Notes under the pieces: model-generated
Database searches by the model: none
What the model was told of the DNA's origin: nothing
The model's input: only the letters and a program-made list of their open reading frames with translations
Shown: piece by piece, positions 17,849 to 21,136 of the stretch
Position numbering within the stretch: the first letter of the stretch is position 1
Layout of the letters: each line of letters begins with the position of its first letter
Translations under genes and position numbers: made by a program
Assembly: GCA_945787715.1 (NCBI GenBank)
Contig: CALZJE010000007.1
Coordinates: forward strand, 1 to 64,000
DNA: 64,000 bases
Origin: an uncultured Ectothiorhodospiraceae bacterium
GTDB lineage: Bacteria; Pseudomonadota; Gammaproteobacteria; S012-40
Reading direction: 5' to 3'

Positions 17849-18505
17849 ATGCTCCACATGCGCATAAAAACACCACTATTATTTATATTGTTAATTTGCA
17901 CTAGCTGCCTCACGGCGGAAGAGTCCATTGTTCAAGTCGCCGAATTTTCAAATAACAACATAAATGACTGGATGAAAAAAGAGTTTGATGGCATCACCCA
18001 ATATAATCTCGATCGAGATGAGCGAACAACCGTTCTCAAAGCGCACAGTCACCGCGCAGCTTCCGGGTTAGTAAAAAAAATTCAAATAGATCTGTATCAA
18101 ACCCCGTATATCAATTGGCGTTGGAAAGTTAACAACCCTCTTTTCATACTCAATGAAACAGAAAAGGAAGGAGATGATTATGCCGCAAGAATTTATGTAG
18201 TCATTGATGGCGGCGTATTATTTTGGCGAACATTAGCGCTCAATTACGTTTGGGCAAGCAATAAAGCAGTCAATGATTTATGGACCAGCCCTTACACCTC
18301 CAATGTTAAAATGATTGCCATTGAAAGTGGAGAGCCATTTAAAAAACAATGGAGAAGTGAAAAACGTAATGTTCGCACAGATCTGCGAAAAGCTTTTGGG
18401 CGAGAAATTCGTTTCATCGATGCTGTTGCAATAATGACCGACACCGACAATTCCCAACAGAAAGCCACCGCCTATTATGGTGACATCTATTTCACCAGCG
18501 AATAG
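17849..18505 (+). CDS. Exported DUF3047 family protein
   Basis: A 218-residue protein with a signal peptide (residues 5-22, KTPLLFILLICTSC...), cut near TAEES; the cysteine in CTSCLT could be a lipidation site, but the box is weak. The mature part matches DUF3047, with segments YINWRWKVN, DYAARIYVVIDG and VDAVAIMTDTDN-like strand (IDAVAIMTDTDNS) and the final YYGDIYF. The fold is probably a periplasmic beta-sandwich of unknown role. A second ATG three codons on (17858) is an alternative start. Confidence 0.85.
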   Translation: MLHMRIKTPLLFILLICTSCLTAEESIVQVAEFSNNNINDWMKKEFDGITQYNLDRDERTTVLKAHSHRAASGLVKKIQIDLYQTPYINWRWKVNNPLFILNETEKEGDDYAARIYVVIDGGVLFWRTLALNYVWASNKAVNDLWTSPYTSNVKMIAIESGEPFKKQWRSEKRNVRTDLRKAFGREIRFIDAVAIMTDTDNSQQKATAYYGDIYFTSE

Positions 18506-18565
18506 CTCTCCACATATCTCAAATAAATAGGTAAGATCTCAGAATCAAACTGAGGAGTGCTTTCA

Positions 18566-19123
18566 ATGGCAAAAATTATCTACCCCGATGGTTCTCAAAT
18601 AACGGAGCTATCAGAAATCCAGAATACATTAAGACAAATCGACATCACTTTAAGTCACTGGGAATTACCTGCTGGCGATTCCGAAAAGACTTTACTTGAA
18701 CAAATCAGTTTAAATGATGACGAGAAAGAAACTTTACTAGAAGCAGTAGAGCATCGTTTTGAAGAGCTTAAATCAAGTCAAGGTTACGTAACACGCGACA
18801 TGATCGTTCTTAACGAAAACATACCTGGCCTAGATGAAATGCTAGCGAAATTTAGTAGCATTCACTATCACACAGACGATGAGGTTCGATATATTCTCGA
18901 TGGCAAAGGCTACTTTGGATTTGTCGATAAAAAAGAGAAGCAATTTATGGTTGAAGTCACTGCAGGAGACTATATAAATGTACCGGCAAATGCTGAGCAC
19001 TGGTTCATTCTAGGTGAGTCAAAACGTATAAAAGCTGTCCGTTATTTCATTGATACAACAGGTTGGACTCCTGTTTACACCGATCGCCCGCTCGCATTTA
19101 ACTTAGAAAATACACCACATTAA
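18566..19123 (+). CDS. mtnD: Acireductone dioxygenase (ARD)
   Basis: MtnD oxidises acireductone to 2-keto-4-methylthiobutyrate, the last oxidative step of methionine salvage. The 185-residue cupin has the metal-binding pattern HYHTDDEVRYIL (two His and a Glu) and a third histidine in PANAEHWFILG. I chose ATG 18566 because GAGGAG lies 8 bases upstream; an in-frame start three codons earlier overlaps that site. The bound metal (Fe or Ni) sets the product in known enzymes and cannot be read from sequence. It is followed one base later by the MtnW-MtnB fusion. Confidence 0.95.
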   Translation: MAKIIYPDGSQITELSEIQNTLRQIDITLSHWELPAGDSEKTLLEQISLNDDEKETLLEAVEHRFEELKSSQGYVTRDMIVLNENIPGLDEMLAKFSSIHYHTDDEVRYILDGKGYFGFVDKKEKQFMVEVTAGDYINVPANAEHWFILGESKRIKAVRYFIDTTGWTPVYTDRPLAFNLENTPH

Positions 19124-19124
19124 T

Positions 19125-20894
19125 ATGATAGAAGTTACATACCGTTTTCCGCGAAATATCGACCCACGAAAACAAGCGCAGATGATTGCGATTGGTCAAA
19201 CAGTCGGATCTTGGGGGGCACAATTTTCTCACCGAGAAAAACAACTTCAATCTCACTTAGCTAATGTGCTCGATGTTAAAATCGAAAAAAATGGCAACTC
19301 AATAGCTGTCATCGGTTTTCCTGAAATCAATACAGAAAACGATATTGCCAGCTTGTTAACCATGATCTTTGGCAAGTTCAGTCTTGCAGGCCCTGCCCGC
19401 ATCATTGATATCAAACTCCCAGAAACCTACGGAACAGCTTCAAAATTCGGGATTGAAGGTATTCGCAAAATTACCCAAGTTTATGATCGGCCATTTATCA
19501 TGGGCATTTTCAAACCGGCGTTAGGATTAAGTGCAAGCGATCATGCAGTACTTTTGAGAGAAGCGGCCAGCGCCGGATTAGATATCATAAAAGATGATGA
19601 GATCAATTTTAATTTGAGAACTGCTCCCACATTAGAAAGAGTAAAAGCGTGCGTAAGCGTAATCAATGATATAAAAACAGACACAGGTAAAGAGATACTT
19701 TATGCCGTAAATTTATCAGGCCGCACAGATAAACTCATAGAAAATGCCAAGCAACTTATTAATGCTGGTGCCAATGCGCTACTGTTTAATGCAATTAGTT
19801 ATGGATACTCTTGCCTCGAATCTCTTGCTGCGTCAACAGAAATAAATGTTCCAATTTTTACACACCCCGCTCTTTCTGGTGCTATCGGTGGTGCCACAGA
19901 TAATAGTAGCGACTATGGAATAGATTACAGTGTTTTACTTGGGACGTTAATGGCATACTCCGGTGCAGATGCAGTACTTTTTCCAACACATTACGGCTCA
20001 CTCCCCTTTAACAAGGAGACTGAGTTAAAAATTAGAAATATTTTACGCACTCCGTTATCCTCAAAACGCCCAGCCATACTTCCAGTGCCCTCCGCTGGCA
20101 TTCATCCGGGCATAATCGGTAGAGCCTTTCGAGATTATGGAAATGATGCAGCTTTTAATGCTGGTTCCGCTATTTTTGACCACCCTGATGGCGCACATGA
20201 AGGTACTAAAGCATTTTTTCAGGCACTCAAACTCGCACAGCAACATAAACCGATTAAACTAGAATCAACTAGTGACGCTGCACTTCAAGTAGCCTTATGT
20301 CACTGTGCAGAGAGTTTTTATTCTCGAGGTTGGATGTTGGGAACAGCAGGCAATCTCAGTGCGCGAATTGACGATGACAGCTTTCTAATTACCGCAAGCG
20401 GCAAAGCTAAAGGTCAGTTATCAGAAACCGACTTCGTTACTATCAATTTACTATCTGGCCAAGAAACTGATCCTGCTCACAATCTGTTATTAAATAATAA
20501 ACCATCAGCTGAAACCTCCATTCACCAAACCATTTACAATCTGTTTCCAGCAGCTAATGCCTGTTTTCATATTCATTCAGTTGACGCATGCTTAGCAACT
20601 CATCCATATGCCAATCAAAACGAATTATTGCTATCCAATCTTGAAATGATAAAAGGATTTGATGTTTGGGAAGAAGAACCAAATATCAATTTACCACTTT
20701 TCGATAATTATTTAGATGTTCCACAAATATCAAAAGAGATTGAAAAAAGATTTGTAATCAATCCACCAGAAATCGACGCGCTGATGATCAAAAACCACGG
20801 TATCACCGTATGGGGCAATAGCATCCAACAAGCATTTAATCGGATTGAAATACTAGAGTTTTTAATGTCTTTCTTGGTAAAAGTATCAAAGTAA
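19125..20894 (+). CDS. Fusion of RuBisCO-like 2,3-diketo-5-methylthiopentyl-1-P enolase (MtnW) and methylthioribulose-1-P dehydratase (MtnB)
   Basis: One uninterrupted 589-codon frame. Residues 1 to about 375 form a RuBisCO-like protein: Lys84 in FGKFS matches the catalytic base proposed for Geobacillus MtnW, Lys130 is in IFKPALGL, and Lys156-Asp158-Glu159 in GLDIIKDDEI match the carbamylated lysine and Mg2+ ligands. PSAGIHPG and FPTHYGS are also typical. Residues about 385-589 are a class II aldolase-fold MtnB: GTAGNLSAR, ITASGKAKG, PSAETSIH, zinc ligands His482 and His484 in CFHIHSVDA and His558 in KNHGITVWG. Both halves look complete. The two activities are consecutive (dehydration, then enolisation). 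It follows mtnD by one base. The phosphatase MtnX and isomerase MtnA are not in the window. Confidence 0.9.
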   Translation: MIEVTYRFPRNIDPRKQAQMIAIGQTVGSWGAQFSHREKQLQSHLANVLDVKIEKNGNSIAVIGFPEINTENDIASLLTMIFGKFSLAGPARIIDIKLPETYGTASKFGIEGIRKITQVYDRPFIMGIFKPALGLSASDHAVLLREAASAGLDIIKDDEINFNLRTAPTLERVKACVSVINDIKTDTGKEILYAVNLSGRTDKLIENAKQLINAGANALLFNAISYGYSCLESLAASTEINVPIFTHPALSGAIGGATDNSSDYGIDYSVLLGTLMAYSGADAVLFPTHYGSLPFNKETELKIRNILRTPLSSKRPAILPVPSAGIHPGIIGRAFRDYGNDAAFNAGSAIFDHPDGAHEGTKAFFQALKLAQQHKPIKLESTSDAALQVALCHCAESFYSRGWMLGTAGNLSARIDDDSFLITASGKAKGQLSETDFVTINLLSGQETDPAHNLLLNNKPSAETSIHQTIYNLFPAANACFHIHSVDACLATHPYANQNELLLSNLEMIKGFDVWEEEPNINLPLFDNYLDVPQISKEIEKRFVINPPEIDALMIKNHGITVWGNSIQQAFNRIEILEFLMSFLVKVSK

Positions 20895-21136
20895 ATCCTT
20901 AACCACTCTTTCTTCCATAATTTTCTTCCATAATCCCTGTAAAGCTTAATCATTAGAATAGTTGCAGGCACACTGTGCATAAGTAGATCAAAAATATCTA
21001 ATGGCTTACTTAATTCTCCATTCACTAACATTCTTACTTTTTCAACAATATGAGGCTCCGGCATAAATGGTGCTCCCAATAAGATTATGCTACCTAAGGC
21101 GAGAGGTAGCATCGGTAATTTGTCGATCCATTTCAT
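20708..21136 (-). CDS. Small membrane protein with an antisense read-through tail
   Basis: The first 75 or so residues look like a conserved small protein often labelled RND-transporter-like, with one clear hydrophobic segment (LPMLPLALGSIILLGAPF) and then PEPHIVEKVRML, GELSKPLDIFDLLMHSVPATILMIKLYRDYG. The frame does not stop where relatives would and continues through KKEWLRIYFDT... for another 60 residues, 187 bases of which are antisense to the end of the MtnW-MtnB gene. The tail is probably non-conserved read-through after loss of the original stop. Function is unknown. Confidence 0.65.
   Translation of the reverse strand: MKWIDKLPMLPLALGSIILLGAPFMPEPHIVEKVRMLVNGELSKPLDIFDLLMHSVPATILMIKLYRDYGRKLWKKEWLRIYFDTFTKKDIKNSSISIRLNACWMLLPHTVIPWFLIISASISGGLITNLFSISFDICGTSK

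Follow-up and report, generated by a model that had tools for sequence, protein, structure and literature searches.

A probable natural fusion of the RuBisCO-like enolase MtnW with the methionine salvage dehydratase MtnB in a gammaproteobacterial draft genome

Organization of the mtn Locus

The window analyzed here is a stretch of 64,000 nucleotides from contig CALZJE010000007.1 of an uncultured Ectothiorhodospiraceae bacterium, the genome of which we refer to as G000. Two adjacent genes on the plus strand were assigned to the methionine salvage pathway, with the following features:

18566..19123, plus strand: mtnD, acireductone dioxygenase of 185 amino acids (Pfam ARD, 1.8e-28; PDB 4qgl, 2.4e-29)
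19125..20894, plus strand: mtnWB fusion gene, 589 amino acids, a single ATG-to-TAA frame with two families in frame
19125..20288, plus strand: MtnW half, approximately residues 1-388, predicted RuBisCO-like DK-MTP-1-P enolase (MtnW structures, catalytic columns)
20274..20327, plus strand: junction helix, residues 384-401 (AlphaFold model, junction spacing, alignment of relatives)
20286..20891, plus strand: MtnB half, approximately residues 388-589, predicted class II aldolase-fold MTRu-1-P dehydratase (TIGR03328, PDB)

The sequence-only reading of this region had described a stop-free frame of 589 codons joining a RuBisCO-like enolase to MtnB, and Pfam and NCBIfam place both families in it. 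It had also assigned the two enzymes to successive steps of methionine salvage with mtnD adjoining, in agreement with the MtnW and MtnB family matches and with the position of mtnD at 18566-19123. The mtnD gene is the first gene of the unit and has a GAGGAG ribosome site at positions 18552-18557. The ATG codon of mtnWB (19125) is located 1 nucleotide past the mtnD stop codon, and the two genes are therefore probably translated together.

No SAM riboswitch or other RNA control element was found at the locus, the only RNA match being to 6S RNA elsewhere in the window (Rfam RF00013; 30162-30340, minus strand), and a promoter scan gave results no better than those of shuffled sequences. A gene for a DUF3047 protein (17849-18505) was located between mgtE and the mtn genes, and similar proteins occupied the equivalent place in genomes G003, G011, and G012. 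A frame of 142 amino acids on the minus strand (20708-21136), the N-terminal part of which resembles a small membrane protein, overlapped the 3' end of the fusion gene by 187 nucleotides; the overlap may be spurious.

Sequence Features of the MtnW and MtnB Halves

The RuBisCO_large domain of Pfam matched residues 109-391 of the fusion protein (1.3e-27), and the NCBIfam mtnW models covered residues 4-391. The best solved relatives by both sequence and fold were 3fk4, 2zvi, 4nas, and 2oek, and the structural relatives of this half are the MtnW enolases of Bacillus, Geobacillus, and Alicyclobacillus. The scores of 378 and 311.7 bits were below the NCBIfam mtnW equivalog cut-offs of 409 and 513.6 bits, respectively, as was also the case for the unfused, operon-embedded MtnW proteins of Gammaproteobacteria, and the cut-off probably reflects the Bacillus-type MtnW. 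We refer to this half as a putative MtnW-like enolase of a gammaproteobacterial branch.

The C-terminal half matched the Pfam domain Aldolase_II at residues 390-582 (4.9e-36) and the NCBIfam model TIGR03328 (mtnB) at residues 392-587, with a score of 184.9 bits that exceeds the curated cut-off of 137.05. The best solved relatives were the MTRu-1-P dehydratases in PDB entries 2irp and 4m6r, which include Aquifex aq_1979.

The catalytic residues listed in the sequence-only reading (Lys84, Lys156, Asp158, Glu159, His482, His484, and His558) were all invariant in alignments that included Bacillus and Priestia proteins as well as the separate MtnW and MtnB proteins of the relatives. K84, K156, D157, D158, and E159 were identical in the 9 aligned MtnW sequences, and H482, H484, H558, E507, and K510 in the 11 aligned MtnB sequences, where the zinc histidines and the catalytic glutamate were also aligned with 4m6r. 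The codon for the FGK lysine, K84, is located at 19374-19376 and the metal-site lysine motif KDDE (K156-D157-D158-E159) at 19590-19601. In the MtnB half, the HxH zinc ligands are encoded at 20568-20570 (H482) and 20574-20576 (H484), the distal H558 at 20796-20798, and the catalytic E507 within the EMIKG motif at 20643-20645. The roles of these residues in the two halves (metal-site lysine, general base, zinc ligands, and acid-base glutamate) we take to be established family knowledge.

It was also noted that contig 170 (L110 3-878) contained a gene, cut by the contig end, for a form I-like RuBisCO large subunit, so named from its sequence. A genuine RuBisCO thus probably coexists with the RuBisCO-like enolase in the G000 genome.

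Structure of the Junction

In G003, which is the nearest unfused relative, mtnW ends with LKEALKKWGEV followed by the stop codon and overlaps with mtnB, which starts with MGGSLMFDDSIADAICVIAKDFHQRGWM in a different frame. The corresponding sequence of the fusion gene reads KPIKLESTSDAALQVALCHCAESFYSRGWM. The distance from the conserved DHP motif in MtnW to the RGWM motif in MtnB was 147 nucleotides in the fusion gene, compared with 197 nucleotides in G003 and 207 nucleotides in G038, such that the fused junction is approximately 50 nucleotides shorter than in G003. The other 2 frames at the junction contained no readable W tail or B start, and the codon-position composition was regular over the whole frame from 19125 to 20894.

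Both halves had been described as complete, which is nearly correct, although about 8 residues at the C-terminal end of MtnW (the KKWG tail) and the first 10 to 15 residues of MtnB are absent or merged in one helix. An AlphaFold model, inferred from an alignment of 31 rows from which plasmid records were left out, had a mean pLDDT of 88.5 and contained two confident domains; the MtnW fold was confirmed. In this model, the C-terminal helix of MtnW continues as the first helix of MtnB (residues 384-401), without a separate linker domain, while the pTM value of 0.68 means that the mutual placement of the two domains is not firm.

The nonsynonymous divergence (dN) to G003 was 0.28 for the W half and 0.37 for the B half, comparable to the values among unfused genes. 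Synonymous sites were saturated and dN/dS ratios to the relatives were for this reason not computable; given the dN values, both halves appear to be constrained, and no sign of decay was seen in either.

Gene Order in Related Genomes

Genomes from the order, from its class and phylum, and from two related orders were searched, and 33 loci with a close MtnW were identified. The gene order mtnD-mtnW-mtnX-mtnB was observed at 28 of these, including G006, G183, and G290 with its family f173, while one locus was cut by a contig end. At 3 loci, mtnX was gone and mtnW adjoined mtnB. In G003, as described above, the two genes overlap in different frames; its locus, L003, matches L027 from a metagenome-assembled genome labelled Ectothiorhodospiraceae. 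In G337 (L057 1501-2619), the mtnW product was shortened to 372 amino acids and lacked about 25 C-terminal residues, with mtnB located directly after and no mtnX. In G038 (L056 1489-3303), where mtnX is absent as well, mtnW and mtnB are in the same frame and are separated by a lone TAG codon followed by the ATG of mtnB. The remaining locus, 1 of 33, is the fusion in G000. In Bacillus, the genes are ordered W-X-B-D.

The W and B phylogenies were congruent, both placing G000 with G003 and these two with G006, with moderate support (90/89 for W and 86/81 for B), and G038 clustered near G183 in both trees. The genome G004 of the same genus, estimated to be 80% complete, contained no close MtnW and did contain MtnC, and thus provides no second species with the fusion.

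We also examined whether the fusion is widespread and already characterized, as the sequence-only reading had considered, and found no second fused copy in approximately 820 genome searches (with repeats), including the class and phylum samples, and no description in the papers searched. A plasmid search matched only unfused mtnW genes of Bacillus and Priestia, a DNA search uncovered no fusion elsewhere, and a pattern scan of a large genome collection revealed no second fusion among the matches listed. Long open frames at loci L008, L009, L059, and L086 were rejected as fusions, their lengths running from stop to stop. Fusions of W and B may exist elsewhere.

Methionine Salvage Genes in the Fusion Genome

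The absence of MtnX from the gene set, which had been pointed out earlier, extends to the whole genome, where no MtnX was recognizable. Of the other genes proposed for a genome check, mtnA was present elsewhere and MtnC was not recognizable; a gene for MTAP was present elsewhere as well. For the aerobic methionine salvage pathway, genes were found for the conversion of MTA to MTR-1-P (MTAP), the isomerase (MtnA), the dehydratase and the enolase (MtnWB), and the dioxygenase (MtnD). No match in the genome was obtained to the MtnX protein of G006, nor to the MtnX-like superfamily model at an E value of 0.01, and no match to MtnC was detected in the fusion genome. Within the order, no genome contained both MtnC and a close MtnW. 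With neither MtnX nor MtnC, the step from HK-MTPenyl-1-P to acireductone is left without an assigned enzyme in G000 and in G003. The missing mtnX is a real and recurrent gap.

The genome encodes several HAD phosphatases, the best names for which were histidinol-phosphatase, a phosphoglycolate-type phosphatase or MupP, and GMP/IMP nucleotidase. A MupP/Gph-like HAD phosphatase gene was located about 4 kb from mtnA. Any of these could substitute for MtnX; none was convincingly linked to methionine salvage.

Alternative Explanations for the Joined Frame

The fusion is known from one draft assembly of 227 contigs, and the nearest relatives have separate genes, as would be expected if the organism had separate mtnW and mtnB genes and an error of sequencing or assembly had merged them. 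This possibility had been raised together with the fusion itself, and the data do not support it. A one-base slip would have kept both the spacing and a readable W tail and B start, neither of which is seen at a junction that is about 50 nucleotides shorter than in G003, and the regular codon-position composition throughout the frame also argues against an error. A deletion fits these observations and a base-call error does not; a one-base frameshift artefact was ruled out, and we consider an error in the join to be highly improbable.

A second MtnB product could be made, in addition or mainly, by internal initiation at Met404, an in-frame ATG (SRGW-ATG) that has GAGG four bases upstream and lies where the conserved MtnB core begins, or the chain could be cleaved. 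However, a product starting at Met404 would be missing both the first helix and the RGW motif, the latter being kept in all gammaproteobacterial operon MtnB proteins compared; the spacing to GAGG is short, and no stop codon or other start has been kept. We regard separate production of MtnB as very unlikely. It is also unlikely that the fused protein has lost or changed one activity, be it for another substrate or by taking over the phosphatase step. The absence of mtnX and mtnC would be consistent with such a change, as would the enolase activity gained by the MtnB domain of Tetrahymena MtnBD (PMC3698126), but the catalytic residues are conserved in both halves, neither half contains a phosphatase domain, and Tetrahymena MtnBD was reported not to catalyze the phosphatase reaction (PMC3698126).

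Discussion

The mtnWB gene is very probably a genuine, vertically evolved gene fusion that followed the loss of mtnX, its product most likely being a bifunctional enzyme. According to this scenario, the ancestral operon would have been mtnD-mtnW-mtnX-mtnB. An ancestor shared by G000 and G003 would have lost mtnX, so that mtnB came to follow mtnW without a gene in between. Some 50 nucleotides spanning the W stop and the B start may then have been deleted, bringing both into one frame, in G000 only. The simplest history would include separate losses of mtnX in G038 and in G337.

If produced as a stable full-length protein, the C-terminal half would dehydrate methylthioribulose-1-P, and the resulting DK-MTP-1-P would be enolized to HK-MTPenyl-1-P by the RuBisCO-like N-terminal half. 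The phosphate would be removed by a phosphatase not recognizable as MtnX or MtnC, after which MtnD would oxidize the acireductone to the methionine precursor. More tentatively, and with somewhat less than even confidence, we suggest that this bifunctional enolase/dehydratase followed the loss of mtnX and that dephosphorylation in the pathway is carried out by an unrelated phosphatase or by the fused enzyme, with about three occurrences of mtnX loss with W-B juxtaposition pointing to an unrecognized HK-MTPenyl-1-P phosphatase in these bacteria.

The domain order W-B runs opposite to the pathway, in which MtnB acts first and MtnW second. It is plausible that the reactive diketone is passed more efficiently from MtnB to MtnW in one chain, and linkage would provide equal expression and a short path for this labile compound. 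In known structures, MtnW forms dimers and MtnB forms tetramers, and the fused chain should consequently form a larger assembly unless one of the contacts has been lost.

Within the searched collections and papers, this would be the first case in nature of a RuBisCO-like protein fused to its pathway neighbor, and intermediate evolutionary stages of the fusion are still visible in living relatives. The mtnX gene seems dispensable in several MtnW lineages, and the identity of the phosphatase in MtnW bacteria that have neither MtnX nor MtnC thereby becomes a testable question. The fusion further makes it possible to ask, in a natural enzyme, whether a physical link between MtnB and MtnW reduces the escape of the reactive diketone.

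Fusions have been described for MtnB-MtnC in plants and for MtnB-MtnD and MtnA-MtnK in Tetrahymena (PMC2759508, PMC3698126, PMC6302742). The literature searched, which included few subscription journals, contained such related fusions only and no MtnW-MtnB fusion. In plant MtnBC, the dehydratase is likewise joined to the enzyme for the next step or steps, but MtnC is a HAD enolase-phosphatase that performs both steps, whereas the enolase in G000 is RuBisCO-like, N-terminal, and without a phosphatase (PMC3698126, PMC2759508). Tetrahymena MtnBD resembles the case studied here in that MtnB is fused to another salvage enzyme in a genome that lacks an intermediate enzyme; however, the partner is MtnD and it was the MtnB domain that acquired enolase activity, while G000 has a real MtnW domain (PMC2759508, PMC3698126).

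The unfused gammaproteobacterial D-W-X-B operons (G006, G183, and f173) and the Bacillus mtnW-mtnX-mtnB-mtnD operon share the enzymes, the active-site residues, and the linkage with G000, but encode W and B as separate chains with mtnX between them, whereas in G000 the two are fused and mtnX is gone. Closest in layout is G038, which has also lost mtnX from the locus and, with W and B sharing a reading frame, is a single codon away from an independent fusion; its TAG codon and the immediate ATG of mtnB keep two chains where G000 has one. As far as can be judged from sequence, the MtnW-MtnB protein of this one assembly is a new domain combination inside a known pathway.
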